This document shows positions 7,342 through 44,192 of a DNA stretch of 47,861 bases, piece after piece (position 1 is the stretch's first letter; every line of letters starts with the position of its first letter). The notes below the pieces were generated by a model that made no database searches, was not told the DNA's origin, and saw only the letters and a list, made by a program, of their open reading frames with translations. The stretch is taken from positions 1 through 47,861 of the IMG/VR virus record IMGVR_UViG_3300014839_000011. The stretch is one strand, 5' to 3'. Origin of the DNA: a virus. A program made the translations under genes and the position numbers.

Positions 7342-7739
7342 GGCAGATCTCTGAATGGGAGAACTTTGTTGTAGGTCGAGTGGGCACGTCGAGCTTCTTT
7401 GAGTTCCTTTTTCATCCTGGAAATGACGGACGCATTCTCCTTGACATCCATCAGAACTTCCTTGAGCATATTGAATATACCCAAATGAACCATGGTGGCT
7501 CCCCCTAGCGCCAACTTTGCGTCGGTGTATTCTCTGAGAGACACTACCTTTGCCCGATAAACCAAGAAGTCCAAATTTTTCTGTAGGGCGTCTATATGTT
7601 CTGCAGTCTTCTTCAGGTCTCTCTGGAGAGCCGCCTTCCTGGTGCCAAGCTCTAGGATAATTGACTTCCCTTGGGCGATATTGTTGGTGAGCTTCGAGAT
7701 GGTGTCTTCAAGCGCAAGAAGCTCATCGAATGCTGGCAT
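7338..7739 (-). CDS. hypothetical coiled-coil protein
   Basis: 133 residues from ATG 7739 (MPAFDELLALEDTISKL). The frame is open further upstream, but ATG 7739 overlaps the HNH stop as TAATG, the usual coupling arrangement here. Heptad-like helices run through residues 5-65 (LEDTISKLTNNIAQGKSI) and 90-125 (MKKELKEARRAHSTYNKV). Function unknown. Confidence 0.65.
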   Translation of the reverse strand: MPAFDELLALEDTISKLTNNIAQGKSIILELGTRKAALQRDLKKTAEHIDALQKNLDFLVYRAKVVSLREYTDAKLALGGATMVHLGIFNMLKEVLMDVKENASVISRMKKELKEARRAHSTYNKVLPFRDLP

Positions 7740-8248
7740 TAGTCTCTCTTGAGGTAAGGGTAGCAAACACAAGTGAGGTCAGGTGGTGTCTCTAGGTATT
7801 GGGCTACAGATTTGGCCAAATCAGGTCGGTCTCGAAGATAGGCGATAGCCATGTTGCACATATGGCAGACCAGACCTCGTACCGCCCCTGTCCTATGGTC
7901 ATGATCCACTTGGTAGGTCTTGTGTTTTCCTGTAGGCGGCCCCTTACAAATAGAACAAACCCCTCCTTGTTGTGCTAAGATGGTGTCGAACTTCTCCCTG
8001 GTTAGCCCATAACGTTTCAGCCAATGATCTGGATGATCCTTCCTATACTGATGGGATTTCTCCCTCCCTGTGAATCTAAGGTCTTGCTTGTTTTCCTGGT
8101 AGTACCCTAAATAGTACTTCTTATGGTAGACGCTTAGGCATTCTTTGCAGGCTTTGCGGTATTTGCCGCTGTCTTTTCTAAACGCAAAATAAGTTTCATT
8201 CAGTGGCTTAGGTATATTACATTTCGGGCACGTTTGTATGATGTCCAT
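7739..8248 (-). CDS. HNH endonuclease, endonuclease VII-like
   Basis: 169 residues. An N-terminal zinc finger (CPKCNIPKPLNETYF, CKECLS) is followed by the endonuclease VII-type core: YGLTREKFDTILAQQGGVCS, ICKGPP, VDHDHRTGAVRGLVCHMCN. The VDHDH and paired CxxC motifs are the His-Me-finger active site and zinc site. Joined to its neighbours by 1-nt overlaps on both sides, so it has been inserted without breaking the coupled leftward unit. Confidence 0.9.
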   Translation of the reverse strand: MDIIQTCPKCNIPKPLNETYFAFRKDSGKYRKACKECLSVYHKKYYLGYYQENKQDLRFTGREKSHQYRKDHPDHWLKRYGLTREKFDTILAQQGGVCSICKGPPTGKHKTYQVDHDHRTGAVRGLVCHMCNMAIAYLRDRPDLAKSVAQYLETPPDLTCVCYPYLKRD

Positions 8249-9360: not shown

Positions 9361-9398
9361 GGGTCTCTCCTCTTAGAGTGGACTTCTTGGAGCGAAGA

Positions 9399-10049
9399 TT
9401 ACCCCTTCTCCGGAGGTGCCGGAGGCTCTACGTGGCCGGGACAGGAGGAGCAGTCGCCGCTACAGGCAGGAGCTGCCTCAGGAGCCGGAGCGAACCCCTT
9501 CTCTTCAGGAGCCGGCGCAGGAGCCGGGACGGGCTGCTCAGCGACATCGTAGATCTCGTTGATGGTGAACTTTCCACCGTTGGGGAGGTCGAAGCTGAAA
9601 CCGACACCCTGGCCAGAGACCTTGTCCTTGAACTCAGGCTTGATTCCCTGGAGGGAAATCTGGACTCGACCAGCCCCGTAGGCCTTGCCGTCCTTGTCGA
9701 ACTCAGTGCCAACGATGAGGCTCTTCTCGCTGACAACTGCGGCAACGACGAACTTGCCATCCTTCACTGCGGTCTCCAAGTCCCTCTTCTGGGACTCAGA
9801 AGCCGCGACAGCACGCTGAAGCAGAATGGAGTCAACTTCAGCCTGGACTTTGCCTTCGCCCACAACGTCCTCAAGAAGATTCTTTACTGCCTCCAGGACG
9901 TTCGCGAAGCTGTCGACCTTGTTCTCCATCTGGCCGAAGGCAGAATTGATGCCCTGGATGATCTGGGGGATGCTCTCCTCAAGAGCGGAGACTCGCTCTA
10001 GAGCGGACTTGGTAGCCTTACGGACACTCATCTGACGGTCGATACCCAT
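9399..10049 (-). CDS. hypothetical protein with Pro/Ala-rich tail and Cys cluster
   Basis: 216 residues, preceded by AGGAGG ten bases upstream. Residues 1-100 are helical (KATKSALERVSALEESIPQI) and possibly coiled-coil. A beta-rich part follows, then a tail of Pro-Ala repeats and a cysteine cluster (CSGDCSSCPGH) close to the C-terminus. The tail could bind a metal. Family unknown. It follows the 275-residue gene with a 5-bp gap. Confidence 0.7.
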   Translation of the reverse strand: MGIDRQMSVRKATKSALERVSALEESIPQIIQGINSAFGQMENKVDSFANVLEAVKNLLEDVVGEGKVQAEVDSILLQRAVAASESQKRDLETAVKDGKFVVAAVVSEKSLIVGTEFDKDGKAYGAGRVQISLQGIKPEFKDKVSGQGVGFSFDLPNGGKFTINEIYDVAEQPVPAPAPAPEEKGFAPAPEAAPACSGDCSSCPGHVEPPAPPEKG

Positions 10050-11175: not shown

Positions 11176-12372
11176 TTACTTGCCAGTACTCCCAAATCCG
11201 CCAGCGCCTCTCTCTGTATCGTCCAGCTCAGTGACCTCCTGAACTTCGAAGTGACAAATTGAACGGGGGATGAGCTGAACAACGCGGATAGGTAGAGGTA
11301 GATCTGGGGCCCCGGGGTCCATTTTCCTAAGGGCGACCAGAATCTCTCCGACATATGTCCTGTCAACGACACCGACACTGTTTGCTAGGGAATATCCGGT
11401 TTTAATTATAGAACTACGAGGAACTAAATCGAAGTAGTACCCCTCAGGAGGTTGAATCTTGATACCGGTGCCATATAGTGTCACATCGCCTAATTCTTTT
11501 ACCTTAGTCACTATAGCGATGTCGTATCCAGAATCAGATGTATGATGTTTCAGTAAAGGTAGGGCTTCGGGGCGGGTGAAATTGTACAGCAATTTCCCGC
11601 AATACTTCCTGTGGCCAGTTCCAACGGGGGTAAAGCAACACCAATCCAGGTACAGATCTCTCTTCCTCGGGAGATAAAAGTTAGCGCCTTCGTATAGCTT
11701 TCCTAGAAAGTCTAGTGTATTAGGATGGACTCCCCATCGTACTTGACCGTTTTTGTCGTCGTTGTGGGCAGATGGACTTAACAGACACACACCCGCTCTC
11801 ATATGAGGAGAGGACGAGGTTATATTGCACTCAGGGGTCCTGTCGCAGGAGGGGAGTCTGATCGATCCGTCACCGTCAAAAAGCCCCCGTAAGAAAGCCC
11901 ACTGTAGGCCTACAGGCAGATGAAGCGGGAATTTAACTATCCCATTTTTCTTCCCAGGGTTGATCCCTAGATGGCCACATATCTCCAATACCATCTTCTT
12001 TGAATATATAACCAGCTTCGCCATATGGGCGAAAGGGCGTTTATGGATAACTCCATTTCCTGCTATCCCCTTAAGCTGGTCCAGTACGTTTTTGTCTTTT
12101 TCGTGTATTTCAATCACAATAGCCCCATCTTTACGAATGGACCCGTCACTAGCTATCCACCCTAAGAGGTAGGCCTTCCCTTCGGAGTCTATGTCGGCCA
12201 TACTTATTAATCCATCGGTGTAGCGTGCATTGGGATTGGCATTACCCAGATATTTGGTCTTAAGATATTCCCCTCTACACTTCAAAGAGCAGGAGGGAGG
12301 TCCTTTGTGGAGCCTAAGCCAATAGGACGGTTTTCTGACTATCAAAGTACCACATACAATACATCTAGCCAC
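11176..12372 (-). CDS. dut: LAGLIDADG endonuclease fused in frame to dUTPase
   Basis: 398 residues from a GTG at 12372 that has GAGGAGG five bases upstream and overlaps the nrdJ stop by 8 bp. N-terminal half: a Cys finger (CIVCGTLIV, CSLKC), then LAGLIDADG motifs AYLLGWIASDGSI and AFLRGLFDGDGSI, ending near DLYLDW. The last about 120 residues are a complete trimeric dUTPase: SDSGYDIAI (motif 1), LVPRSSI (2), NSVGVVDRTYVGEI (3), RVVQLIP (4), RGAGGFGSTG (5). No Met lies between the two parts, so the dUTPase has no start of its own. The N-terminal zinc finger is typical of free-standing nucleases, and intein end motifs are missing, so a true fusion is more likely than an intein. Confidence 0.88.
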   Translation of the reverse strand: MARCIVCGTLIVRKPSYWLRLHKGPPSCSLKCRGEYLKTKYLGNANPNARYTDGLISMADIDSEGKAYLLGWIASDGSIRKDGAIVIEIHEKDKNVLDQLKGIAGNGVIHKRPFAHMAKLVIYSKKMVLEICGHLGINPGKKNGIVKFPLHLPVGLQWAFLRGLFDGDGSIRLPSCDRTPECNITSSSPHMRAGVCLLSPSAHNDDKNGQVRWGVHPNTLDFLGKLYEGANFYLPRKRDLYLDWCCFTPVGTGHRKYCGKLLYNFTRPEALPLLKHHTSDSGYDIAIVTKVKELGDVTLYGTGIKIQPPEGYYFDLVPRSSIIKTGYSLANSVGVVDRTYVGEILVALRKMDPGAPDLPLPIRVVQLIPRSICHFEVQEVTELDDTERGAGGFGSTGK

Positions 12373-13999
12373 AGGAACCTCCTCGGTTAATATCACAGAC
12401 ATCGGCCTGTTCAACGAAGACCTCTCCAATGTGCTTGACGGCAGTAGCATAACGGACGGGCTGCAGTGGCTGCCCTGAGCGGGCACCATCGGGATATGCA
12501 GTGATACCCCTAAGCTTGGGCAGGTACTTGATTAGCATGTTCCCAAAGGCCTCAACTGTGCCGCTGTTATTGAATTCGCTACCCCAGGGAGGTAGGTTGA
12601 TTGTGCTCGAGATTCCGTGGTCCACGTACTGCTGAACCCAGGCTTGGAAGGCGACCCTCTTCTCGATGTTCTCCGCTAGCACGTAAGCATCCTCAATGGA
12701 GTCAGGGTCGGCGCCGGCTTCAATCAACCTCTGAGCTGTTGGGTCAACGACGTACTGATAATGCACCACATCTCCCTTGAAGTAGCGCCTCTTGTAGGCG
12801 ACACAGAAGATAGGCTCAATTCCCGTGGTACTTTCTGCAGCGATTCCAACTGTCCCATTCGGGGCAATAGCCCTGGTCTTGATGGGGACATTTAGGTCCC
12901 AAAGCTTGGCATATTTACTGGCGTACAGCCCTGAGGTCAAATAGACCTTCAGGTATTCCTCCAGTGCAGAATCAGGCTCGTACTTTTTCCCATGAGCCAA
13001 GAGCCACTCATGGAGCCCCAACAACCCCAGGCCGAGGCGACGGTTCTTGGTCCTAACCTGATCCACCTTGGCATAGGGGACATCGCTGTAGACGGTCCCC
13101 GCAAGCAAGAAAGATGTCGACAGCTCCACCACCCTCTTCATTTCGTCCAGTGAAGCAATTCGGGACATATTGATGGAACCTAGATTGCAGATGTCGCTGT
13201 CGTCTGCACTGGTGATTTCGGTACAGGCGTTCCGGAGGCATTCTCTCCTGTTGGCTCCGCAATCAACGCTGAAGCCCGGCTCGCCCGTCTTGAGCATCTG
13301 CTGGACAACCGCCCAGTAAACTCCGTAAGCCAAGGAATGATGCTCGTGTTCGTCGTTTTCGTATGCCGTAAAAAAGTCATCGTCCAAAATCACGCTGACG
13401 TTGGTCCCATCTAGACGTGCTGGGAAGTTGCTGTCCTGTTCCTTGAGGGCCTTGACCTCTTCGGACCAATTCTTGATTCGGATGAACTTGTGGACATCGG
13501 GATGATTCCAGTGTAGGCCAGCCCAGATAGCCGAGCGGCGAGTGCCACCCTGGCGGATGCCCCTCCCGGCTTCGTTCACCATCTGGACCAAAGCGATAGG
13601 ACCCGTCGCCCGGCCTCCTGTCTTGCGAATCAGCTTCCCCTCGCCTCGTAGGTCGCTGTAGACCACTCCGATACCAGCCCCAGTCATCAGGGCCATGGTG
13701 GACTTATACATCAAATCCGCCCAACCTTCACGGCTGTCTTCTGCCCTCAGGGTGAGGCAGTTCTGGACTTGGTGAAATTGCCTACCCGCAGCGTACAGAT
13801 ACCTGCCTCCAGGCATGAACTTTCGGAGGGAGATGAGGCTCTCGATTTCCTCCACCATCGCCTTAGGGGCGTCGACGGCTTTCATGACGAAGTGAGCCGT
13901 ACGATGGGCTATCTCTGGCCACGTCTCCTTGCGGCCATCAAGATCGTGGGCATAACGCTGATCTACAACAGTTTGAGCGAAGGGGCCCATCTTCATCAT
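12365..13999 (-). CDS. nrdJ: adenosylcobalamin-dependent (class II) ribonucleotide reductase
   Basis: 544 residues from ATG 13999, which overlaps the HNH stop as ATGA. Active-site features: QNCLTL (first redox Cys), GIRQGGTRRSA, LRNACTEIT (thiyl-radical Cys), CNLGSIN, and APNGTVGIAAESTTGIEPIF, the class II substrate-binding loop. The C-terminus has two Cys (ADVCDINRGGSCG) able to act as the re-reducing pair. It reduces ribonucleotides to deoxyribonucleotides using vitamin B12 coenzyme from the host, and no separate small subunit is needed. With dUTPase next to it, it supplies DNA precursors for phage replication. Confidence 0.92.
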   Translation of the reverse strand: MMKMGPFAQTVVDQRYAHDLDGRKETWPEIAHRTAHFVMKAVDAPKAMVEEIESLISLRKFMPGGRYLYAAGRQFHQVQNCLTLRAEDSREGWADLMYKSTMALMTGAGIGVVYSDLRGEGKLIRKTGGRATGPIALVQMVNEAGRGIRQGGTRRSAIWAGLHWNHPDVHKFIRIKNWSEEVKALKEQDSNFPARLDGTNVSVILDDDFFTAYENDEHEHHSLAYGVYWAVVQQMLKTGEPGFSVDCGANRRECLRNACTEITSADDSDICNLGSINMSRIASLDEMKRVVELSTSFLLAGTVYSDVPYAKVDQVRTKNRRLGLGLLGLHEWLLAHGKKYEPDSALEEYLKVYLTSGLYASKYAKLWDLNVPIKTRAIAPNGTVGIAAESTTGIEPIFCVAYKRRYFKGDVVHYQYVVDPTAQRLIEAGADPDSIEDAYVLAENIEKRVAFQAWVQQYVDHGISSTINLPPWGSEFNNSGTVEAFGNMLIKYLPKLRGITAYPDGARSGQPLQPVRYATAVKHIGEVFVEQADVCDINRGGSCG

Positions 14000-17649: not shown

Positions 17650-17875
17650 CCTCGTCTGCCTCATTGTAAGTCTTGCCTGTGACCTCAACGCTACCCTCGG
17701 TACCTGAAAGGATATCAATCACCCTTTCAGAAACCTCGTTCATTGTCTCGAGATCCGGACCTTCGCCGAGGGCCTCTGCCTCCCTGTCTTGCTTCATCTT
17801 GTGGATTCGGTAGATAGTCAGGAGGAAATGACAGAATACAAGAATGAACAGTGCATTTAGGAGAAGAGACATCAT
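17642..17875 (-). CDS. small single-span membrane protein
   Basis: 77 residues, MMSLLLNALFILVFCHFLLT: a transmembrane helix over residues 3-21, then a charged, acidic cytoplasmic or periplasmic domain. The start overlaps the HNH stop (ATGATG over TGA). No family recognised. Possibly works with the 33-residue membrane peptide next to it. Confidence 0.7.
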   Translation of the reverse strand: MMSLLLNALFILVFCHFLLTIYRIHKMKQDREAEALGEGPDLETMNEVSERVIDILSGTEGSVEVTGKTYNEADEDV

Positions 17876-18450
17876 GGCTTTCTTTCTTTCTTTTGTTGTG
17901 TCATATAATCACTGACACGTTCTAGTATCACTTGAAGGCTATCTCCAAGGAGACCTAGTCCTGAATTACAGGTATTGTGAACCATTCCTCGGATGGCACC
18001 GGTTTTGTGGTCATGGTCCACCGCTGGATCTCCCCTTTCGTTATTAAATGGTTTTCCGCAAAAATCGCATTTACCACATGAAGATAGAAGCAGTTTATCA
18101 AATTCGACGGTTGTAAGTCCGAATGTCTGTAGAACGTGATAATAGAACATTTTCCTCTTGTGACTGAGATTACTCCGAGCCCAGTTGTTGTTGTAGTCTG
18201 GATGAGCGATTCTCCATGCTATCCCAGCTTTCTTGGAGCAAGACTTACAATTGCCATTTGAATATTTGTTGACATCACCGCATTTGGCACACGGCTTGTT
18301 ATATTTTGGAGAACTCCTTCGGTTCCCTTTATAGGTAAATCTCCATTTTCCACAAGCCTTTTTAGCACAAGACCTACACCGACCATTCTTCCTTCTGTCA
18401 GCCCCTCCACATCTAACACATGGCTTGACCGCTAGGCAAGGGCCGTTCAT
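17872..18450 (-). CDS. HNH endonuclease, endonuclease VII-like, with two zinc fingers
   Basis: 192 residues. Two repeated N-terminal fingers (PCVRCGGADRRKNGRC and PCAKCGDVNKYSNGNC, each followed by a CxxC-type half) precede the nuclease core: FGLTTVEFDKLLLS, CDFCGKPF, VDHDHKTGAIRGMVHNTCN. Overlaps both neighbours by 1-4 bp, so it was inserted between groEL and the membrane-protein genes without stopping coupled translation. Confidence 0.9.
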   Translation of the reverse strand: MNGPCLAVKPCVRCGGADRRKNGRCRSCAKKACGKWRFTYKGNRRSSPKYNKPCAKCGDVNKYSNGNCKSCSKKAGIAWRIAHPDYNNNWARSNLSHKRKMFYYHVLQTFGLTTVEFDKLLLSSCGKCDFCGKPFNNERGDPAVDHDHKTGAIRGMVHNTCNSGLGLLGDSLQVILERVSDYMTQQKKERKP

Positions 18451-20231
18451 TAGGGTCTCTGGTCCGCTTCGTTTGTATTAGCATCGCGCTCCCATGCCGT
18501 AGTAGCTTGGGCTTCGCTTCTTTCTAGGGTCAGATCTCTCCGGAAACAAATTGTCCCCCCCAACGTCCCAAGCAGTGTTGCGATTGATATACTATTCCGA
18601 ATGGCCTCCAATACAGCAGGGGTCGAGTCCAGGATCCCCCCAGCAAGGGGAGAGACGTGCTTGCTTTCGAGGATGTCATAGACTAACAATTCCTTGCCTT
18701 GATTCATATTGTTTAGGATAGGCTCCAGGATGGTCATGCATTCGTCTTCAAATATCCCAGCATTTCTAAATAGTGTGATGACCGGCTCGTACAGAGCAGG
18801 AATGAGGACCTCACTTACAATGAGGTCGTTCTGCAGGCGAAGTTCGGCCATCGTCCGAAGCAGAGTCCATCCCCCACCCGGCAGGGCTCCGTGCTTGATG
18901 GCTCCACGTACGCCACAGACGGCATCCTCGGCGCGGTCTCTCTTCTCCTTGAGTTCTCCGTTGCTGGCGCCAATCACCTTGAGGCGAGCGATGCCCCCCG
19001 TCAGCTTTCCAATGCGCTCTTCAAGGAACATGTGCTCAAGCTGTGATTCAGCCCGGTCTAGTTGTGCCTTGAGTTCATCCACACGAAGCAAGATGCAGTC
19101 TTCCTGCTCCTGGGGGCGAGGGGAATGGCTGACTACGTTGGAACGGAATCGAGTGACCTCAAAGGAAGCAACCCCAAAACCCAAGTCATCTGGGAGTGCA
19201 TGTTCAAGAGTCTCGTTGAGAGGGTCGAGGAGTGTCGCTCCAGTGATGGCAGCAAGGTCCTGGAGAAAGTAGAGTTGGCCGTTGGGGAAGGGGAACTGAG
19301 GCACCAGTAGAGGGAACACATTGAGTGAATTTCCTTCGGGGAAGTTGAAAGCCAGCAGTGACATGACCTGCTCACTGAAACCAGTGGCTACCAAGACGAC
19401 GTTGTGGGGGCCACCGTTGGCTTGCCACTCCTGATGGACGAGATCCAACACCTTGAGCAGCGACTGGAACTCGGTGACCTTGCCATGGTAGAGCAAAAAC
19501 ACTGGCTTCTCCAGAATACAGCGTTGCGCCTGTTGGTCGTTTATATATTTGCAATAGAACTTCCCACACGAACTTTCATATCCCATGGAAATCGGGTATC
19601 CGTCGATTTTCTCGACTTCGTAGTGACTGGGCCCATTCACCTCAGCAATAGTCACGTTTCCGTCGTCTCCGACTAGGTCGAAGCACTCCATGACTGCATC
19701 GCTCAGCTCGGTGTCCCCGTTAGCTGAGATCTTCGCCACGTTCTTGAGAAGGTCTCTGCCCTCAGGGGTGCTCAAGTCGGCTTTGTAGGCGAGCTTCCTG
19801 ATTAGCGGCTCGATGACTTCTTTGAAGGCTCTCTCGAGCCGGCGCACGACCTTCTGCGGGCTGATCCGGGGATTGCCTGCACAGAATTCCTTGGTGTGAC
19901 GGACGATGCTTTCTGCCAGGATGGTTGCTGTAGTGGTGCCGTCTCCAGCCTCTGAAGCGGTACGGACGGCAGCATCTCGAGCTGCCTCCATCACGCAATG
20001 AGCTGCAGGGTCATCGAATCCGAGAGCACGGAAGCAAGTGACACCGTCCTTCGTGACCATAGGGCCAAGGGCGAACTCCTGCCGCTCAATCAGGACCTGT
20101 CGCCCGCCAGGACCGAGGGTACCCCCAACGATGTCGGAGATTACTTTCATGGTCTTCAGGATGGTTTTCTCTAGAGCCGGGCCCTTGGTCTGGATGCTTT
20201 TCGCGACACTCTTGATTTTCTGGTATTCCAC
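18450..20231 (-). CDS. groL: phage-encoded GroEL-like chaperonin
   Basis: 593 residues from a GTG at 20231 with AGGAGG seven bases upstream. Chaperonin signatures: TLGPGGRQVLIE, TKDGVTCFRAL, EAGDGTTTATILAESI (ATP site, with the catalytic Asp), KISANGDTE, and the long block ERIGKLTGGIARLKVIGAS followed by AEDAVCGVRGAIKHGALPGGG. It is longer than the usual about 548 residues and ends in a charged tail instead of Gly-Met repeats. It presumably folds phage proteins such as capsid. It shares a leftward unit with the winged-helix gene. A possible GroES-like partner is at 23919-24287. Confidence 0.93.
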   Translation of the reverse strand: MEYQKIKSVAKSIQTKGPALEKTILKTMKVISDIVGGTLGPGGRQVLIERQEFALGPMVTKDGVTCFRALGFDDPAAHCVMEAARDAAVRTASEAGDGTTTATILAESIVRHTKEFCAGNPRISPQKVVRRLERAFKEVIEPLIRKLAYKADLSTPEGRDLLKNVAKISANGDTELSDAVMECFDLVGDDGNVTIAEVNGPSHYEVEKIDGYPISMGYESSCGKFYCKYINDQQAQRCILEKPVFLLYHGKVTEFQSLLKVLDLVHQEWQANGGPHNVVLVATGFSEQVMSLLAFNFPEGNSLNVFPLLVPQFPFPNGQLYFLQDLAAITGATLLDPLNETLEHALPDDLGFGVASFEVTRFRSNVVSHSPRPQEQEDCILLRVDELKAQLDRAESQLEHMFLEERIGKLTGGIARLKVIGASNGELKEKRDRAEDAVCGVRGAIKHGALPGGGWTLLRTMAELRLQNDLIVSEVLIPALYEPVITLFRNAGIFEDECMTILEPILNNMNQGKELLVYDILESKHVSPLAGGILDSTPAVLEAIRNSISIATLLGTLGGTICFRRDLTLERSEAQATTAWERDANTNEADQRP

Positions 20232-21348: not shown

Positions 21349-21359
21349 TACGCTATATC
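21349..21359 (+). promoter_or_regulatory. CGCTAT-family promoter element (rightward), proximal
   Basis: Reads TACGCTATATC. The predicted transcription start, AAGGA SD and helicase ATG (21378) follow within 20 bp, the layout seen at most copies. Confidence 0.65.
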
Positions 21360-21377: not shown

Positions 21378-22856
21378 ATGATTACACAAGTCTCAGCTAC
21401 GAAATCAATCTTGACTGACCTGGACTTTGATGAGGTCAATAGACATCTCCAGTACCATGACAAGAGGGTGGACTTCGAAATCAAGAAGTGCAAGGACTCT
21501 AAGCCATGGTTTGTCAAGAAGTACGGAGAGGAAGCATTTCAGCAAAAGCTCGATGACTTGAAAGCAAAGAGAATCAAGACGCTCTTATTCAAGAACGAAG
21601 ACGGTACCTACTGGACGTATTCCGGCATCAGCAAGTATCTAGCCGACAAGATGAGAGACCAACATCTCAATCAAGTCCAATATCCAGAACCAAAGGCAAT
21701 CCCCTGGAGTAAAGAGCCTGACAAGATTCCACGTCCCTATCAGAAAGAAATCGTAGAGAAGCTTATCGAGATCAGGCATGGAGCAGTTGAAGTTGGTACT
21801 GGCCTAGGGAAGTCTTTCTGTGCCTTGTTGTTAGCTAAGCATTTCGGTCTCAAGACAGTGATTATGACTCCCTCGAAGAATATCTGTAACCAGATGTACG
21901 ATGAATTCATCAAGCACTTTGGAAAGAAATACGTCGGGAAGTATGGCGATGGCAAGAAAGAATTCTCCAAGCTATTCGTTGTAGCAATCGATGATTCCCT
22001 GTCTCGAGTTGAAGTGGGTACTGAAGCATGGGATGCCCTATCGGCTGCTTCTGTTTTTATTGCAGATGAAAGCCATCTTACGGCTGCTGCAACTTTGGCC
22101 AAGGTTTGCTTTGGTCTGATGGCCAATAGTCCCTATCGGTATTTCTTCTCTGGAACTCAGTTTCGAAATGATGGACTTGACCTCCTGCTGCATGCTATCA
22201 CAGGTGGAATCGTTTTCAAAATGACTGTGCAGGAGGGTGTAGACCATGACCCTCCCTATTTGGCTAAGCCTATGTTTCGCATGATCAAGATGAAAAGTAG
22301 GGTGAATTACTATTCAGACGACCAAAACAAGATGACTCGAGCCCATCTGTATTACAACAACGATGTTATCAAGACTGCAGCTTCTGTAGCAAACCAGATG
22401 GTTGAAGAACTCGGTCGCCCTGTAGTTATCTTGATTGAAGAGCTTGAACAATTCACCAAGTTGTTGCCCTATCTGAAGCACAAAGTGGGCTTTGCCCATG
22501 CTCTTTGCAGCAAGGATAATGTGGATAAGATTCCTCCAGAATACAGGAAGTCTGACCCCACCGCCCTGGTCGAAGCCTTCAATCGCCATGAGTTCCCTAT
22601 TCTCATCGGGACTAGCTGCATCAGTATCGGTACCGATATCCAAGATGCAAGAGCCCTGATCTACCTGCAGGGTGGTAAGTCCGAGATACAGGTGAGACAG
22701 GCGATTGGTCGTGCTACACGCCTGTGTGATGGAAAAACAGACTGCTTCATTCTGGATTTCGATGTAAGCGAATGTGAGACGACTCATCGTCATGCCTACG
22801 CTCGTCGCGAAATCTACCAAGAGATTTACCCTGGACTCGAGGAGATGTCGGTATGA
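21378..22856 (+). CDS. SF2 DNA helicase, UvsW-like
   Basis: 492 residues. Motif Q-like region RPYQKEIVEKLIE, Walker A EVGTGLGKSFCALLLAK, motif Ia MTPSKNI, DExH box IADESH, motif III FFSGTQFR, motif V-like GTSCISIGTDIQDA, and motif VI RQAIGRATR. This matches superfamily 2 helicases such as T4 UvsW, which remodel forks and recombination intermediates. First gene of the rightward unit; its stop overlaps the sigma-factor start as ATGA. Confidence 0.88.
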   Translation: MITQVSATKSILTDLDFDEVNRHLQYHDKRVDFEIKKCKDSKPWFVKKYGEEAFQQKLDDLKAKRIKTLLFKNEDGTYWTYSGISKYLADKMRDQHLNQVQYPEPKAIPWSKEPDKIPRPYQKEIVEKLIEIRHGAVEVGTGLGKSFCALLLAKHFGLKTVIMTPSKNICNQMYDEFIKHFGKKYVGKYGDGKKEFSKLFVVAIDDSLSRVEVGTEAWDALSAASVFIADESHLTAAATLAKVCFGLMANSPYRYFFSGTQFRNDGLDLLLHAITGGIVFKMTVQEGVDHDPPYLAKPMFRMIKMKSRVNYYSDDQNKMTRAHLYYNNDVIKTAASVANQMVEELGRPVVILIEELEQFTKLLPYLKHKVGFAHALCSKDNVDKIPPEYRKSDPTALVEAFNRHEFPILIGTSCISIGTDIQDARALIYLQGGKSEIQVRQAIGRATRLCDGKTDCFILDFDVSECETTHRHAYARREIYQEIYPGLEEMSV

Positions 22857-23890
22857 TGCTCTCTGATTCAGATTCCCACTTCCGCGATTTCGCTCATACC
22901 CTGGAACGTGCAATCGAGAGGTACGGTGACCTCAGCGATGAGACTTTGCTAGCCCGTCAATGCCGCCAGATGGAGAAACTCGCCTCCCTGGAAGTGGAGT
23001 TCACCCAGACCCTCCTGAAGCATGCCTGGGGTCCAGGTGTATTCAAGGGATTTGTAGGGTACATCTGCGATGAGCGAAAGAACATCCTGGCAGCTAGGCC
23101 ATTCTTCCGTGAACGTCAGGTAACATTTACCAGAGAAATCTCTAAGGCCCTGAAGGCTAGGAACCACGAGGCTCTATACGGGTTCCACATCAATTTCCAG
23201 TTCGTCCAGTTTGCCGTCAACAAGTACAAGTGGCCTGTCGGATCTCAGGTGCTGAAGATAGCAAAGCATATTTCCCAGTTGCGTATGGAATTGGTAGAGA
23301 TGAACATGCCCTTGGCTATCAGTCGGGCTAGGATCTTCTGGTCTAGAACACCGAAATCCCAGTTGACCTACATGGACCTCGTGCAGATTTCATGTGACGG
23401 CTTGATTAGTGCTATCGACAAATACGTGATGCCCTTCAGCAGGAACTTCAGGGCTGTGATTATTGGCCGGATCACAGGCAATTTTATCGAGCAGTATTCT
23501 GAAACACTGGTTCATTTCTTCCCTGTGGACAAGAGGAAGATCTACCGAGCCAACAAGCTCATGTCCCGGTTAGTTCATGGCTGCGAAGGCCACTTGGATT
23601 ACGCTAAGCTGGTCGAGGCCGTCAACAAAGACGTAGACGAGGCACACAAGACAACCGAGTCGGAAATAGCCGACCTACTCGCTGCTGCCTCCTGTGTTAG
23701 CACTGATGGGGCATGTCTGGATGGTGAAGACACTGCTCCAAGCATCAATCGGTTTGCTGCTCCGTCGTCATGCCAGCCTGATGTCCAATTCGAAAAACAT
23801 GAGGTCATCTCGAAATTGGAGGAGGCTATTAGAAAACTGCCGATGGCCGAGCAGAAACTATTGCACATGAAGGGGATCTCACTAGGCTGA
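22853..23890 (+). CDS. phage sigma factor (sigma-70 family) lacking region 4.2
   Basis: 345 residues. Residues about 145-218 match sigma region 2: LVEMNMPLAISRARIF, then LTYMDLVQISCDGLISAIDK (core-binding 2.2), then FRAVIIGRITGNFIEQYSET (2.3/2.4, -10 reading and melting). A region 3-like helix set follows. The end, LEEAIRKLPMAEQKLLHMKG, matches the first helices of region 4, but the protein stops four residues later, so the helix-turn-helix that reads the -35 box is missing. It would direct host RNA polymerase to promoters recognised mainly through the -10, as T4 gp55 does. A good match for the CGCTAT elements that lack -35 boxes. The identification is from motif order; overall similarity is low. 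Confidence 0.75.
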   Translation: MMLSDSDSHFRDFAHTLERAIERYGDLSDETLLARQCRQMEKLASLEVEFTQTLLKHAWGPGVFKGFVGYICDERKNILAARPFFRERQVTFTREISKALKARNHEALYGFHINFQFVQFAVNKYKWPVGSQVLKIAKHISQLRMELVEMNMPLAISRARIFWSRTPKSQLTYMDLVQISCDGLISAIDKYVMPFSRNFRAVIIGRITGNFIEQYSETLVHFFPVDKRKIYRANKLMSRLVHGCEGHLDYAKLVEAVNKDVDEAHKTTESEIADLLAAASCVSTDGACLDGEDTAPSINRFAAPSSCQPDVQFEKHEVISKLEEAIRKLPMAEQKLLHMKGISLG

Positions 23891-23918: not shown

Positions 23919-24287
23919 ATGCACGATGCAAAGAAGATGATTGAAGTCCTGTCCGACCAGTTACCTCCGTCGTCCCCTCCGCAGGCCCTACCGCCAAAAC
24001 CTCCCCGTGCAATCAACGGCAAGGTAGCTTGTGCTCCATTTGTTTCGATGTCGGTGGAGAAGGAGATCCGTGGAGGCATGGCTTGCCCAAAGCAGAGGGG
24101 AACGATGACCAAGCTGGAGGTCGTCCTGGATAGCGGGAAGGGGGCTGGCAATTGGTACTCGAAGGGGAGTTCGGTTTGGGTGCGAGCCGAGCAATTCCAG
24201 TTGCAGTGGGCCAAAGACGTGTTCGACCTTGACGGTACCAAGTTTATCCTTGTCCCTGAGGAACAAATCCTGCTGGTGCAGTCATGA
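23919..24287 (+). CDS. hypothetical protein, possibly GroES-like
   Basis: 122 residues with a strong SD (GGAGGA). A Pro-rich N-terminus (PPSSPPQALPPKPPR) precedes a beta-rich part ending SSVWVRAEQFQL, WAKDVFDLDGTKFILVPEEQ, ILLVQS. The order of G-S/x-VxV, a turn, xDGxxFILVPExxIL resembles the C-terminal half of GroES-type co-chaperonins and related short phage proteins. The link to GroES is suggestive only; the mobile loop is not recognisable. A GroEL-like gene elsewhere in the window makes it attractive. Confidence 0.4.
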   Translation: MHDAKKMIEVLSDQLPPSSPPQALPPKPPRAINGKVACAPFVSMSVEKEIRGGMACPKQRGTMTKLEVVLDSGKGAGNWYSKGSSVWVRAEQFQLQWAKDVFDLDGTKFILVPEEQILLVQS

Positions 24288-24445
24288 TGCATCCCATCTT
24301 GTTTCTGTGGTGTATGTTGGTCGGCCATCGTCATTGGCTCTTTAGTAGAGAAAATCCGATGATGTGGTTTACTAGTGCCGCAGGAGAGAGGCTCGAATTC
24401 CGATTCTGTGATCGTTGCGGTACCCTGCACGGCAAGAGAGGCTAA
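24284..24445 (+). CDS. 53-residue hypothetical protein with one CxxC
   Basis: Starts ATG 24284 overlapping the previous stop (ATGA); a second ATG follows directly. MMHPILFLWCMLVGHRHWLF, with a single CDRCGTLHGK near the C-terminus, may be half a zinc site. It lies three bases before the SbcD start, whose SD (AGAGG) is inside its end. Confidence 0.55.
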   Translation: MMHPILFLWCMLVGHRHWLFSRENPMMWFTSAAGERLEFRFCDRCGTLHGKRG

Positions 24446-24447
24446 CA

Positions 24448-25425
24448 GTGAAACTCCTGGTCGTCGGCGATGTCCATGCTGTGGCCACTGAGCTACAGGA
24501 CTGCGCCACCTTGGTTGGTTTTGTGCTCGAGGTTGCAGAGCAGACCAAACCGGACCTGATCCTGTTCCTCGGGGACCAATTTCACAACCACTCCATCGTT
24601 CATGTCGATGTGTTGGCCTTCTGGAAGGCTGCCTTCATCGCCTGTCGAAAGTCTGGGTTCAAGGTGGCCGCCCTGGTCGGAAACCATGATATGACAGGCC
24701 TGGAGTCGAACCAAAACCATGCAATGCTGGCGTACACCAGCGACATCACAGTAGTCGACAAGCCCATGGTTGTAGGCGGGGTGTTGCTGCTGCCGTACTA
24801 CTTTGACCCCAAGGCCTTCGTTGAGGCATGTGTGGCTCATTCCGATTGCTCCACAGTGATTTGCCACCAGACCTTTCAGGGCGGCACGTATGACAACGGA
24901 TTTTACGCGAAGGATGGCGTGAACCTTGACGAGATCCCCCAGAAGTCCGTGGTATCAGGACACATTCATAAGCCACAATCTTTTGGGAAATGCTTTTACC
25001 CCGGCTCCCCTAGGTGGCGCACCTTGTCGGACGCTAATGAAGAGAGGGCTATCTGGCTTCTGAAATATGAAGCAGGTAACCAAGTAGACCAGACGGCATT
25101 TAGCACGGGGGCTAATTGCCGCCGCGTTTGGTACTTTGTTGATACAGTGGAGGCTCCCGTGAAGCTACCCTCTGTCATAAAGGACCAGTGGAGAATCGAC
25201 ATCAAGGGCTCTCAGGAATACGTGCAGGCCAGAAAGCAAGAACTGCAGGGACCCGGAGTCCAGGTTCGGTGCTTCCCGGACCAACAGGCGAATACCCTGC
25301 AGGTCCGGGAGTCCGAGGGCGTCGAAAAGGCTTTTACTGGGTTCATGGATAGGTATCTACCAAAGTACGGGACAACTAGAGACGTGCTCGAAAAGATGGC
25401 GAAGGAGAGACTGGGAAATGGATAG
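24448..25425 (+). CDS. sbcD: SbcD/Mre11/T4 gp47-like nuclease
   Basis: 325 residues from a GTG at 24448 with AGAGG six bases upstream; a longer frame exists but begins inside the upstream gene. Di-metal phosphoesterase motifs: VVGDVHAVATE, LFLGDQFHNH, ALVGNHDMTG, VICHQTFQGG, VVSGHIHKPQSFG. A C-terminal capping domain follows. It should pair with the SbcC-like ATPase (14964-17135) as a DNA-end-processing exonuclease, although the two genes lie in opposite transcription units. Confidence 0.88.
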   Translation: MKLLVVGDVHAVATELQDCATLVGFVLEVAEQTKPDLILFLGDQFHNHSIVHVDVLAFWKAAFIACRKSGFKVAALVGNHDMTGLESNQNHAMLAYTSDITVVDKPMVVGGVLLLPYYFDPKAFVEACVAHSDCSTVICHQTFQGGTYDNGFYAKDGVNLDEIPQKSVVSGHIHKPQSFGKCFYPGSPRWRTLSDANEERAIWLLKYEAGNQVDQTAFSTGANCRRVWYFVDTVEAPVKLPSVIKDQWRIDIKGSQEYVQARKQELQGPGVQVRCFPDQQANTLQVRESEGVEKAFTGFMDRYLPKYGTTRDVLEKMAKERLGNG

Positions 25426-25654: not shown

Positions 25655-26070
25655 GTAACGTAGGTAACAATACCACTGAGCAGCTCCTCGTCCTGAAGGC
25701 GCTTACCCGTTCTACCGGGTGTCTACATGAGGGACAAATCCTGCAGCTCAAGATGTGGACCTATCTACTCTACCCCAAGGTCAAAGTCAAGTACGAGATT
25801 CAGATTGACCAGACTCTAAAGTCAGTGAAATACCTGCTCTCCTACCCTCGTAAGGTCCCCGCAGGGCTCGCAGGGAAATCGGCTGAGCTAGAGAAGGACT
25901 TCCATTGGCTCCTTGGTGACGAGTGGCTCCTGGAGATTGTAGCGAATTCTAAGAGGGTGTTCAGGGGCACCAGACAGATCAAGGCTGGGCAGGACGCGCA
26001 GAAGAAGGTATATACCCCCTTTATCAAAGCAGTGGATGAATACGCTGATTCTTTTAGGAAGAAGTCATGA
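25651..26070 (+). CDS. hypothetical protein
   Basis: 139 residues from ATG 25651 (MSNVGNNTTEQ), overlapping the previous stop as ATGA with GGGAGAG upstream. Mostly helical, with a Lys-rich C-terminus. No family recognised. Followed by a 4-bp overlap with the GIY-YIG gene. Confidence 0.65.
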   Translation: MSNVGNNTTEQLLVLKALTRSTGCLHEGQILQLKMWTYLLYPKVKVKYEIQIDQTLKSVKYLLSYPRKVPAGLAGKSAELEKDFHWLLGDEWLLEIVANSKRVFRGTRQIKAGQDAQKKVYTPFIKAVDEYADSFRKKS

Positions 26071-26699
26071 CCAGTAAGTTTTTGGTATACGGGCTAGTAG
26101 ATCCTCGTGACGGCCAGTTGCGTTACGTGGGGAAGTCCTGCTCTGGCCTCTGGAGGCCTACGGAGGAGTTTAATAGAGCCCTTAAGGGACAGGAGGGAGC
26201 TAACCATCGGGTTAATTGGATTAAGAATATGCATTCCTCTGGGTGTAGGTATTCGGTTGTAGTGTTCCAGGAACTTGAATCAAATGAGATATTATCTCAG
26301 GCAGAGGTATTTTGGATTGCATACTTTAGAGGGTTGGGATGTAAACTAACAAACATGACGGTCGGCGGTGAGGGAGTGGTCTACAGTGGTGTACATCGTA
26401 GAGGGTATCATCTCTCTGACGCCACTAGGGCCAAGATGCGAGCTAAGCGCCTAAGTGATAAAACAAAGGCCCTTATAGGCGCATGGAGCAGAGGGAAAAA
26501 GAGGACAGAACGGACGAAACACCTCATTCAGATGTCTCAGCCTCATCGCCGTTCTGTGGTGGATCAAAATGGTGTGGTATACCCTACAATTTCCGATGCA
26601 GCTAGATGCCTCGGTTTGGACAGGTCAAACATTAGTGCTATGCTACACGGTCGTTTGAAATCAATCGGTGGTTATATTTTTAGGGTGTCAAATGGATGA
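26067..26699 (+). CDS. GIY-YIG homing endonuclease with NUMOD1 motif
   Basis: 210 residues. GIY-YIG core: FLVYGLVDPRDG, LRYVGKSCSG, WRP, then a catalytic-region Glu in QAEVFWIAYFRGLG and the Asn-type NMTVGGEGV. A basic NUMOD3-like linker (TRAKMRAKRLSDKTKALIG) follows, and a C-terminal NUMOD1 DNA-binding motif (PTISDAARCLGLDRSNISAM). Inserted just before the terminase genes and coupled by ATGA overlaps at both ends. Confidence 0.9.
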   Translation: MTSKFLVYGLVDPRDGQLRYVGKSCSGLWRPTEEFNRALKGQEGANHRVNWIKNMHSSGCRYSVVVFQELESNEILSQAEVFWIAYFRGLGCKLTNMTVGGEGVVYSGVHRRGYHLSDATRAKMRAKRLSDKTKALIGAWSRGKKRTERTKHLIQMSQPHRRSVVDQNGVVYPTISDAARCLGLDRSNISAMLHGRLKSIGGYIFRVSNG

Positions 26700-27279
26700 G
26701 ATTGCAAGGATTCCTCTGGATGCATTGAGTGTCAGGGAGAGGTCTGCCTACCAGTTATCTGTCTCACGCAAGGAGCCCTTCCTCTCGCCGGTTCTAGCCG
26801 ACCAGTTGTATCGTCTGTTCGAATCCGGCAAGACCTGTGAGGAAATCCAGGCAGTCAACAAAGGGATTACCTTGGGAACTATCGTCCGGGCTAGGGTTGA
26901 TTTCGGCTGGGATGAGAAGAGGAATCAATATTTCCAGAGCCTGTGCGACAGAGCCAAGGGGCAAGCCAAACAGCTCGTGCTCGAGTCCGTGTCTTTCCTG
27001 AGCGACTTCTTGAGCGCATTCCATCGCCATGACAAGGATAAATTCGCCCGCTTCATCCAGACTGGCGACCCGAAGGAGCTGGACGGGGCCATGATGGCAG
27101 ATGGTGGAGGCCTGAAACTGTATCAGAACGTGGTGGCACTGCTCTTGACTTTGACGGGCCAGGAATCAACCAAGACGATCCATGGGGTGGTCGAACACCA
27201 TCACACTGTTGAGGCCCCCAAGGCAGACAAGGCACTCACTTCGGAAGAGGCATCTGCCTTGCTATTGGGGTCCAAGTAA
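26692..27279 (+). CDS. terS: probable terminase small subunit
   Basis: 195 residues from ATG 26692 (MDEIARIPLDALSVRERSAY), overlapping the GIY-YIG stop. It lies directly before the large terminase gene with a TAATG junction. A helix-turn-helix-like stretch (LFESGKTCEEIQAVNKGITL) and a central helical oligomerisation region fit small terminases, which bind the packaging site. Called from position and helical pattern; sequence similarity is not decisive. Confidence 0.6.
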   Translation: MDEIARIPLDALSVRERSAYQLSVSRKEPFLSPVLADQLYRLFESGKTCEEIQAVNKGITLGTIVRARVDFGWDEKRNQYFQSLCDRAKGQAKQLVLESVSFLSDFLSAFHRHDKDKFARFIQTGDPKELDGAMMADGGGLKLYQNVVALLLTLTGQESTKTIHGVVEHHHTVEAPKADKALTSEEASALLLGSK

Positions 27280-29234
27280 TGGACTTGAGTTCACTGTCGC
27301 CGGAGCAATTGGACTCCCTCAAGCGCAAAGCCGTACTTGTGCCTTGCAAGAGCAAGGATGCACTGAAAAATTGGGTGGGTCTATACCTAAACCTAGACCT
27401 GCCTAATTGCATCGTGGACCCCAGCAGCAACTCCTGTCCTATGGACATCCTCTGGCTTGCCTACTGCAAGATGGTAGAGGGAGATCCCGACTACACCAGA
27501 ATCCTGTTCTTCGCCGCTCGAGACTGCTTCAAGAGCCTTCTGGCTTCTGTTATCGAGCTATTGTCGGTCCTGCATTTGAAGAGGGACAACTGCCACCTTG
27601 CAGCAATTGAGTCTCAGAGCCGTGTCTGCGCTAGGTACCTCCGCAAGTATGCCGTCCTGCCCTACATCAGGGACTATGTATCGCAGATGTCGGAGAGGCG
27701 CATCGAGTTTACTAGGTTCGAACGCAGCGGAGAGACCATCTCGTTTGTTGAGTACAATGCACTGAACCCCGTCGACAAGCTCACCTACACGCAGGTAACC
27801 AACTTCATCCAGGTCGTGATCGCGACAATGCAGGGTACCAACTCTGCCCACTCTCAAGTCCTCCTTCTAGACGAGCTGGACCTAGCCCCTCGCGCTCCTG
27901 TTGAGGAATCGAAGATGATTCCTACTCAGTGCGCTGACGGTAAGCCCCCTGTGGTCTTGATGACCTCCTCCCGTAAGTTCGCTGCCGGCTTGGTTCAGGA
28001 AGAGATTGACGAGGCAGAGGAGCGTGGCACACGAGTGTTCCACTGGAACCTCTTGGACTGCACTCGCCCTTGTCCTCCGGAGAGGCATCTGCCTCAGTCT
28101 CCGATGATTGACATCTACTATTCGGAGTCCAATCTCAAGGCTATTTCCGAGGTAGCCTGGGGTGAGTTAGGGGAAGACCAGAAGGAGAAATACAAGAAGA
28201 CTACGGGTTATACCGGCTGCCTCAAGAATTGTCGTTTGTTCGCTGTGTGTCGTGGCCGGCTGGTGTCTGGACAGAAGTGCAAGTCCCCCCTCCTAAAGAC
28301 AATTCCTCACGTTCAGAACCTATTCAGGAGTGTGGACGTTGAGGTCGCCAAGGCCCAGTTGATGTGCTGGAAGCCATCAAATTACGGCCTGATCTATCCC
28401 AATTTTGACGCCTCCCTCCACGTACTCACTGCAGCTCAGATAGCGGCCAAGGTGACCGGAGACAACTATCCCGCTTCCTTCTCCAAGGCTGATTTGATTC
28501 GTCTATTCAAGAGCCGTGACGCTCAATTCTTTGCGGGCATGGACCATGGCTACACTCACAATTTCGCAGTTGTAGCTGGAGCTAAAGATGGGAATAGGTT
28601 CTTCGTCCTCGATGTCATTTCCGCTGCAGAACTTGAACTGTCTCAAAAAATCGAGGTGTGTACTTCGCGCATCAAGGACCTGAACCCTGTCATCTACGCA
28701 GACCCCGAAGATCCCGCTTCCAACAAGACACTGAAGAAGCATTTCCGGATGCGTGACTGGAGTAAGAAGCCGGGTTCCGTTGTGGGAGGCATTAGTATCG
28801 TGCGGTACAAGCTGATGCCTACCATGGGCAATGAGCCTCAATTGTATTTCCTGGGAGGTGACTCAGACGTTGAGACCTTGGTTAAGGACTTCTCGAAGTA
28901 CAGGTGGATGCTAGACAAGAATTCAGGAAAGCCCACTGATATCCCCAGCGAAGAAGACGACGACAGAATGGACGCCCTACGCTACGTGATTATGAACGTA
29001 TTCGACAAATCAGGCAAGCTGATGGCTGCCCCCGAGACTGCATCAGAAAAACGCTCCCTGGAGGCTATATCCGGAGGAGGTTCTCTGCAGCAGGGTAATT
29101 ACTCTCAGAGCAACTGGGCCTCAAAGATCATCCAGGAGTGTCTGCAGCCTACTTCGACTCCAGGTCAAGACGACGCAAATCAGTCCCAATCCTCCAAGGG
29201 TAAAAAAGGTGGATTCATATGGAACTTGGGATAG
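27279..29234 (+). CDS. terL: terminase large subunit (packaging ATPase and nuclease)
   Basis: 651 residues. The ATPase half has a deviant Walker A (ILFFAARDCFKSLLAS, about residues 75-90) and Walker B (QVLLLDELDLAPR), then LMTSSRKF as the coupling motif. The nuclease half has FFAGMDHGYTHNFAVVAG (first Asp), VIYADPEDPA, and EEDDDRMDALRYVIM (last acidic cluster). A Cys-rich segment between the halves (CLKNC, CRGRLVSGQKC) is unusual and may bind zinc. The protein pumps DNA into the prohead and cuts it. Confidence 0.9.
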   Translation: MDLSSLSPEQLDSLKRKAVLVPCKSKDALKNWVGLYLNLDLPNCIVDPSSNSCPMDILWLAYCKMVEGDPDYTRILFFAARDCFKSLLASVIELLSVLHLKRDNCHLAAIESQSRVCARYLRKYAVLPYIRDYVSQMSERRIEFTRFERSGETISFVEYNALNPVDKLTYTQVTNFIQVVIATMQGTNSAHSQVLLLDELDLAPRAPVEESKMIPTQCADGKPPVVLMTSSRKFAAGLVQEEIDEAEERGTRVFHWNLLDCTRPCPPERHLPQSPMIDIYYSESNLKAISEVAWGELGEDQKEKYKKTTGYTGCLKNCRLFAVCRGRLVSGQKCKSPLLKTIPHVQNLFRSVDVEVAKAQLMCWKPSNYGLIYPNFDASLHVLTAAQIAAKVTGDNYPASFSKADLIRLFKSRDAQFFAGMDHGYTHNFAVVAGAKDGNRFFVLDVISAAELELSQKIEVCTSRIKDLNPVIYADPEDPASNKTLKKHFRMRDWSKKPGSVVGGISIVRYKLMPTMGNEPQLYFLGGDSDVETLVKDFSKYRWMLDKNSGKPTDIPSEEDDDRMDALRYVIMNVFDKSGKLMAAPETASEKRSLEAISGGGSLQQGNYSQSNWASKIIQECLQPTSTPGQDDANQSQSSKGKKGGFIWNLG

Positions 29235-29272
29235 CAACAATCTTTAGATAGCGAAATTCCTGAAAGGGACCA

Positions 29273-34856: not shown

Positions 34857-34885
34857 AGTATAGCGAGACTCTGGGGGACTGTCAA
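34857..34885 (-). promoter_or_regulatory. sigma-70-type promoter carrying the CGCTAT element
   Basis: Minus strand: TTGACA (34880-34885), exactly 17 bp, then TATACT (34857-34862) preceded by CTCGC. Consensus host -35 plus the phage-specific CGC before the -10. Confidence 0.8.
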
Positions 34886-35380: not shown

Positions 35381-35409
35381 ACTATAGCGCAACTCAGGGA
35401 GTCTGTCAA
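35381..35409 (-). promoter_or_regulatory. sigma-70-type promoter carrying the CGCTAT element
   Basis: Minus strand: TTGACA (35404-35409), 17 bp, TATAGT (35381-35386) preceded by TTGCGC. Drives the 131-residue gene. Confidence 0.8.
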
Positions 35410-35763: not shown

Positions 35764-35802
35764 GTGGTTCGGTTAAATATGCGATCTTACTAGCAGTAGC
35801 AG

Positions 35803-35813
35803 TGCGCTATATA
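35803..35813 (+). promoter_or_regulatory. CGCTAT-family promoter element (rightward)
   Basis: Reads TGCGCTATATA, followed by AGAGGAA and the HNH ATG at 35835. No -35. Confidence 0.6.
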
Positions 35814-35834
35814 CAGGTAGAGGAACTTTCAACT

Positions 35835-36581
35835 ATGAACGGCAATCTTGAGGACATGCCTACAAAGGGACCCAAGGACAGGATGGTTGAGGCCTACCTG
35901 TCCGGCCTGTCGGCTGCAAAGGCAGGTAAGACGGTGGGCTATAGTGAATCAGTGTGCTTAAGTGAACTAAAAAAGAGGGGCATCCCTGTGCGTAAGAAGA
36001 AGTGGGTCCTTGCCCTAGAGCGGGGTCGTAAGGTGTGTTTCAAGTGCAAGGAAGAAAAAACCTTGGACCAGTTCTTTGCGAATAAGTTTCTTAGGGACGG
36101 GGTAACTACTTGGTGCCGGGATTGCACGAAGAAGTCCAATAAAAAATGGCATGATAATAATGTCGAATATCATCGTGGACTGAACAATGAACATTACCTC
36201 CTTCACAAAAAGGAGAAGCACGCTAAACGCATGGAGCGGTTACACACAGATCCAAAGGCTCGTCTTATCCACCATCTTAGGTCTAGGTTGAATGCCTTTT
36301 TCGGGGGCAAGAAACCAGCACATACTATGGACTTGGTCGGCTGTTCTTTAGAGGTATTGAAGGCTCATATCGAGTCTCTCTTTACCGATGGGATGACCTG
36401 GGGCAATTACGGAGAGTGGCATGTGGACCACATTATCCCGATGGCGAAAATTGATTTAGCTAACCCTGAGTCCATCTGGAAGATCTGTCACTATACCAAT
36501 TTGCAGCCGCTTTGGGCAAAGGATAATTTGACCAAGGGGTCCAAATACGAAGAGCAATCTTCTTCATCTGGAGATCCATAA
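35835..36581 (+). CDS. HNH endonuclease with helix-turn-helix and zinc finger
   Basis: 248 residues from ATG 35835; AGAGGAA lies ten bases upstream and the promoter element just before. Residues 10-55 form a helix-turn-helix (YLSGLSAAKAGKTVGYSESV). A zinc finger follows (CFKCKEEKTLDQFFANK, WCRDC). The HNH core is GEWHVDHIIPMAKIDLAN, LQPLWAKDNLTKGSK. Right boundary of the small-gene island; its stop overlaps the protease ATG. Confidence 0.88.
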   Translation: MNGNLEDMPTKGPKDRMVEAYLSGLSAAKAGKTVGYSESVCLSELKKRGIPVRKKKWVLALERGRKVCFKCKEEKTLDQFFANKFLRDGVTTWCRDCTKKSNKKWHDNNVEYHRGLNNEHYLLHKKEKHAKRMERLHTDPKARLIHHLRSRLNAFFGGKKPAHTMDLVGCSLEVLKAHIESLFTDGMTWGNYGEWHVDHIIPMAKIDLANPESIWKICHYTNLQPLWAKDNLTKGSKYEEQSSSSGDP

Positions 36582-44078: not shown

Positions 44079-44192
44079 ATCATGTAGATTGCTACTCCCC
44101 TCGTCCTATTGAGTTTGCAACTTAATCTTCTTTTTGTACCTGAGAAACAAAAGGCCTTTTACCTGCCGTACCACACTCAAGGAGAATGAAAC

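Follow-up and report, generated by a model that had tools for sequence, protein, structure and literature searches.

A conserved phage sigma-70-family protein lacking region 4.2 and a candidate -35-less late promoter motif in Mx1-type phages

The viral DNA analyzed here, referred to as the window, is 47,861 nucleotides long (IMG/VR record IMGVR_UViG_3300014839_000011) and carries a sigma-70-family gene in a group of genes whose order (helicase, sigma, small ORF, SbcD, TerL) is kept across the clade by synteny. The helicase gene overlaps the sigma gene by 4 nt, and the two form one operon of conserved order. The features at this locus are:

21351..21357, plus strand: CGCTATA without a -35 box, candidate promoter of the helicase-sigma operon
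21378..22856, plus strand: DNA helicase gene (phrog_16, E=4.9e-54; synteny)
22853..23890, plus strand: sigma-70-family ORF, ATG start, 345 aa, ending after region 4.1
22862..23245, plus strand: N-terminal helical part of the sigma protein, residues 4-131 (VIA, pLDDT, conservation)
23267..23518, plus strand: region 2 (2.1-2.4), residues 139-222 (PF04542, RpoD profile)
23519..23752, plus strand: region 3 (3.0-3.2), residues 223-300 (RpoD profile, model)
23777..23887, plus strand: region 4.1, residues 309-345 (helices 309-327 and 331-339, then the protein end)
23919..24287, plus strand: small conserved ORF after the sigma gene (synteny; GroES-like C-terminus by eye only)
24415..25425, plus strand: SbcD-like nuclease subunit (phrog_100, E=1.6e-24; synteny)
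27279..29234, plus strand: terminase large subunit (phrog_5653, E=6.5e-16; synteny)

The family search gave no match for the small ORF at 23919-24287; a phage GroEL gene (18450-20231, minus strand) lies in the same window as this ORF, which appears GroES-like by eye. The DNA polymerase gene (phrog_405) is found in two minus-strand ORFs, 1357-3300 and 3951-6104, which are about 650 nt apart and both overlap a plus-strand ORF at 3014-3970 (318 aa). This arrangement looks like an intron or a homing-type insertion. Families of endonuclease VII, HNH or homing-type endonucleases are matched by six window ORFs, one of which also holds a dUTPase-PHROG-like domain, and from these matches the genome appears to be heavily invaded by endonuclease-type genes:

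7739-8248, minus strand: endonuclease-type ORF
11176-12489, minus strand: endonuclease-type ORF
17872-18450, minus strand: endonuclease-type ORF
26067-26699, plus strand: endonuclease-type ORF
35802-36581, plus strand: endonuclease-type ORF
42996-44078, minus strand: endonuclease-type ORF

As a single sequence, the 22853-23890 product gave weak matches to sigma families, including the sigma family phrog_351 in PHROGs (E=7.9e-6) and Pfam Sigma70_r2 (PF04542), where its match (E=0.027) did not reach the Pfam cut-off and the best family member gave E=1.4e-4. A profile built from 32 family members matched RpoD among PDB sequences (best chain 7xya_F, E=1.2e-10) and E. coli RpoD itself (E about 4.6e-9 to 5e-9). 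The alignment to RpoD runs from region 2.1 through region 3 to region 4.1, where the ExKLLRxKG end of the profile pairs with RpoD, and stops at E. coli residue ~567. Both the profile match and the fold identified region 2, which is responsible for core binding and -10 reading, and this bears out an earlier sequence-based reading of the window, referred to here as the original prediction, in which region 2 was described as recognizable.

A first structure model built on 2 sequences had a pLDDT of 50 and was discarded. The AlphaFold model from 32 sequences had a mean pLDDT of 85.2, with values above 90 at residues 31-150. The structure comparison with sigma-70 that had been proposed as a check returned a sigma fold: Foldseek matched the model to SigA/RpoD chains with a probability of 1.0, and VIA placed model residues 4-345 over sigma-70 residues 92-567 (Z 12.8, 292 residues, rmsd 10.7). 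The whole-chain TM-score was only about 0.4, and both this value and the high rmsd arise because the domains are placed differently in the model. T4 gp55 was not among the fold matches listed, which is not evidence of a difference. Residues 4-131 superposed on sigma-70 region 1.2/NCR, from residue ~92, and include the family-invariant motif ARP[YF]FRERQ. Region 3, including the linker, is present, with low model confidence at residues 282-302. Judged by profile alignment and predicted structure, the product is a sigma-70-family protein with region 1.2-like, 2, 3 and 4.1 segments, and the missing C-terminal part is the region 4.2 helix-turn-helix, the reader of the -35 box. The ORF translation ends in KLPMAEQKLLHMKGISLG, and its last residues before the stop read EEAIRKLPMAEQKLLHMKGISLG.

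Among 50,697 phage records, tblastn identified one relative, in Myxococcus phage Mx1 (45% identity), and two further IMG/VR relatives had the same C-terminal end. The Mx1 protein (WNM70309, 'putative RNA polymerase sigma factor') is an orthologue with the same end and the same gene order; in the Mx1 genome announcement the sigma factor was annotated only, and neither its truncation nor late promoters were described (PMC10720576). Additional homologues were retrieved with a degenerate DNA pattern for ARP[YF]FRERQ, which yielded 47 stretches; 39 homologues were complete, and after removal of redundancy 31 IMG/VR loci were left. Because this pattern sits in the N-terminal half, the missing C-terminus was not selected for. 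Matches to the pattern in GTDB were rejected as spurious, and alignment-derived scans of viral and GTDB contigs recovered little.

The 32 aligned homologues and the Mx1 protein (39-60% identity) all end 1-20 residues past the KG of the KLLRxKG core, for which the consensus is L-x-x-x-E-x-K-L-L-R-x-K-G; the tail after KG has a median of 5 aa (range 1-20) in the 32 aligned members, and region 4.2 is absent from 32/32 of them and from Mx1. A frameshift, readthrough or a sequencing or assembly error behind the short end was ruled out because every complete homologue stops at this point. The comparison of homologues indicates that truncation before region 4.2 is a real, conserved family trait, in agreement with the original prediction that the protein ends early in region 4. 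PHROG 351 was matched by 4/4 members tested, with E-values down to 4e-12; the aligned part covers regions 2 to 4.1 and stops at position 688 of the 928 in the profile. One family member was found per genome in 11 clade genomes, Mx1 and the window, and none was found in T4; in G004 the gene is split in two by contig ends. Many homologue-bearing contigs are 130-182 kb in length.

Provision of region 4.2 by another gene was also considered and rejected. Sigma70_r4 gave no match over the cut-off in 14 records (the window, the contig of L002, Mx1 and 11 further genomes), nor did Sigma70_r4_2 (PF08281) in the window, the contig of L002 and Mx1, and the sub-threshold region 4 matches were weak and chance-like in appearance.

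Upstream regions in Mx1, based on the published annotation, contained [CT]AATCT[TAC] in 15/47 late-strand versus 1/97 early-strand cases (Fisher p=1e-7). With a simple custom gene caller, CAATCTT was then counted upstream of genes in four IMG/VR genomes not used for discovery (11, 4, 5 and 8 versus 0.64, 0.47, 0.54 and 0.65 expected) and in the window (2 versus 0.13 expected). Pooled over six clade genomes, it occurred 36 times versus 2.9 expected and ranked first of 16,340 7-mers, with 7 occurrences of its reverse complement; the next best letter permutation, AATCTTC, is CAATCTT shifted by one base. The same pipeline recovered the known late motif TATAAAT in T4 (12 versus 0.65), and no CAATCTT was found upstream of genes in Mx8 and Mx4, phages of the same host as Mx1. 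The 34 kb contig G002 had too few sites in the motif search. The YAATCTT copies in the window are:

9395..9401, minus strand: TAATCTT before the 9360 exonuclease gene
29238..29244, plus strand: CAATCTT, 28 nt upstream of the 29273 gene, candidate -10-like element of a late promoter
36555..36561, plus strand: CAATCTT before the 36581 gene, whose Mx1 counterpart by orthology is the putative prohead protease gene; the G003 orthologue has the motif
44123..44129, plus strand: TAATCTT, 63 nt upstream of 44193, a weak candidate

CAATCTT precedes late structural genes, at a distance from the start codon that varies from about 8 to 45 nt, and many late genes have no visible copy. A modest late-strand bias is seen outside Mx1 (20:2, against 165:81 overall; p=0.015), and 2/22 motif-preceded genes with Mx1 orthologues are located on the early strand. 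Several sites are conserved between genomes: that of the 29273 gene in its orthologues in G005, G008, G009 and Mx1 (as CAATCTA), that of the Mx1 7617 gene in Mx1, the window, G005, G008 and G009, and that of gene 23137 in Mx1, G005, G009 and G003. In the Mx1 prohead protease gene (L004:13002), CAATCTT lies at 13010, just inside the annotated gene; the annotated start is probably too early, because the orthologues carry the motif upstream. Similarly short motif distances were seen in Mx1 at 7617, 36563, 75289 and 121405.

Alignment of 58 YAATCTT sites revealed an extension, R-G-Y-V-G, at positions -5 to -1 just upstream of the motif and no information at the -35 position. The 99.9% null was passed by a single column, at -42, as is expectable by chance among 100 columns. 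The expectation that this phage has -35-less promoters is supported, the candidate YAATCTT being other than the motif that was originally put forward. CAATCTT as a late promoter was not found in a literature search of partial coverage.

Natural sigma-70 members without region 4.2 are already accepted, as exemplified by T4 gp55, a protein of 185 aa with no regions 3.2 and 4.1, a clamp-binding C-terminus and the partners gp33 and gp45 (PMC7892883, PMC2988020). Like gp55, the phage sigma has a sigma-2 domain, no region 4.2 and candidate -10-only late promoters, so that gp55 was fairly cited as a functional precedent. The two differ in that the present family keeps regions 3.2 and 4.1, matches phrog_351 rather than phrog_234, and is associated with YAATCTT instead of the TATAAATA-type T4 late element, and in that no gp45 (PF09116) is co-encoded in 11 clade genomes and Mx1. 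No sequence similarity was detected between gp55 and the family (hhalign probability 0.9%). By these comparisons the family is not a member of the gp55 family, and the likeness is one of apparent mode of action.

The closest mechanistic precedent is sigma-70(1-565), a laboratory construct that equals the wild type on the extended -10 promoter galP1, where it needs no co-activator, and is inactive on T7 A1 (PMC6237814). The phage sigma ends at nearly the same aligned residue (~567) and by analogy would be expected to act on extended -10 promoters and not on -10/-35 promoters. The construct is artificial and was studied on E. coli galP1, whereas the phage proteins are a natural, conserved family that appears to have its own -10 specificity. 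The phage protein is best read, in effect, as a natural late sigma of the sigma-70(1-565) design.

The sigma identity and predicted fold, the conserved truncation, the failure to detect a separate region 4.2 or clamp gene, and the clade-wide occurrence of CAATCTT before late-strand genes without a -35 box were obtained by computation. From them we infer that the sigma factor reads CAATCTT, that CAATCTT is a promoter, and that the helicase-sigma operon is early or middle and its targets late. Taken together, it is likely that the sole phage sigma of this clade of ~130-180 kb genomes directs the host core RNA polymerase to -35-less YAATCTT late promoters. A host sigma or another factor would read the early and middle promoters, including CGCTATA at 21351 before the sigma operon; the phage sigma would then be made and replace the host sigma on the host core RNA polymerase. 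Core binding, and the reading and melting of the extended -10 element (R-G-Y-V-G plus YAATCTT), would fall to regions 2 and 3, and the holoenzyme would be brought to late promoters with no region 4.2 contact to a -35 box, because the polypeptide stops where sigma-70 has residue ~567. The sigma factor and CAATCTT are probably paired, the link between them being their shared distribution: both are common to six genomes, and CGCTAT is found mainly in the window and G008.

A sigma factor without region 4.2 can act unaided, because sigma-70(1-565) transcribes galP1 like the wild type. By this analogy, the phage sigma alone, with no clamp or region 4 partner, may account for the full late switch on RGYVG-YAATCTT as a new class of extended -10 promoter, and would then be an evolved counterpart of that construct, a proposal to which we give slightly less than an even chance. 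It is less likely, and would be compatible with late transcription from YAATCTT by the phage sigma, that the factor is split, with the function of region 4 supplied by a separate phage protein (a gp33-like flap binder or an AsiA-like factor) and the truncated sigma weak in its absence. T4 gp55 and gp33 have been described as such a split sigma (PMC2988020), in which gp33 binds the beta flap (PMC2988020, PMC7892883); many clade genes are without an assigned function, and the kept region 4.1 suggests a surface retained for something. The lack of Sigma70_r4 over the cut-off in 14 records and of PF08281 in three argues against a split factor, but such profile searches are blind to a gp33 analogue because gp33 has no sigma homology.

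The original prediction assigned CGCTATA to the sigma factor and described the promoter motif of the genome as mostly -10-like, with no -35 box. The enrichment of CGCTATA was reproduced (16 sites in the window versus 2.03 expected; 0/100 shuffles reached 16), and the sites lie mostly 20-30 nt before start codons, mostly without a -35 box. By way of correction, several sites are inside genes and 2/16 have a perfect TTGACA 17 bp upstream:

34859..34865, minus strand: CGCTATA, forming a consensus -35/-10 promoter together with TTGACA (34885-34880)
35383..35389, minus strand: CGCTATA, forming a consensus -35/-10 promoter together with TTGACA (35409-35404)

G008 has 21 CGCTAT sites near starts, mostly of the GATTCGCTAT type and without a -35 box. 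On the G008 contig (L099-L107), GATTCGCTAT accompanies about 20 starts, and in many of these cases its distance to ATG is exactly 9 nt, a spacing that suggests leaderless transcripts.

In the window and in G008, CGCTAT makes a second motif that lacks a -35 box, and it could be the target of the sigma factor, alone or along with CAATCTT. A reading in which the sigma factor recognizes CGCTATA, the CGC serving as an extended -10, while a different factor uses CAATCTT, is nevertheless improbable. Four of six genomes have 0-1 upstream copies of CGCTATA, the two copies with TTGACA fit a host sigma, and the copy at 21351 heads the operon of the sigma factor itself, which should be on before the sigma factor exists. 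Early-strand genes in Mx1 often have TTGAC with a TAnnnT -10, frequently with CGC before the -10, so that CGC fits host-type promoters, because it is paired there with TTGAC. The assignment of CGCTATA to the phage sigma is therefore probably wrong, CAATCTT being the motif present in all six genomes. The Mx1 early promoters (L005-L007, minus strand) also have GATC (AGATCC/GGATCT) between the -35 and -10 elements, TAGATC is found with no -35 box at some genes for replication in Mx1 (DNA polymerase, RNR), and AGATCT/TAGATC is enriched in G005 too; in Mx1, these elements may possibly represent a middle promoter class or an operator.

More doubtful still is the interpretation of CAATCTT as an RNA-level element for processing or translation, or as a site for a host factor, instead of a promoter for the phage sigma. 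The motif is known from sequence alone and sits just before start codons, but its distance to the start is variable, it is strand- and class-specific, it is absent upstream of the genes of the other Myxococcus phages Mx8 and Mx4, and the conserved extension upstream resembles that of extended -10 promoters. Of the two helpers that the sigma factor was originally said to need perhaps, a co-activator may exist, whereas a clamp has not so far been supported: a T4-like system tethering the polymerase to a sliding clamp, which the gp55 analogy, late promoters without -35 boxes and a large genome with its own DNA polymerase would favor, is very improbable, given that neither gp45 (PF09116, in 11 clade genomes and Mx1, with T4 as the positive control) nor a beta clamp (PF02767, PF02768, in clade genomes and Mx1) was detected and that the 1-20 aa tails have no conserved or clamp-type binding motif, although a host clamp or a very divergent one might possibly serve, and a tail might carry a motif of an unusual kind.

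If the proposed late transcription from YAATCTT by the phage sigma is true, it would represent a second natural route to dropping -35 reading in a phage sigma factor, apparently independent of T4 gp55, and the kept regions 3 and 4.1, which are absent in gp55, would allow a direct test of their role without region 4.2. YAATCTT would be the first candidate late-promoter code for Mx1-type phages, and the link between the sigma factor and this motif would be testable at the bench, Mx1 being culturable on M. xanthus. The two may also be of use to studies of transcription, as a candidate for a short orthogonal sigma/promoter pair. Homologue searches indicate that this sigma family is widespread among large phages, and that its truncation is more general than one window shows.
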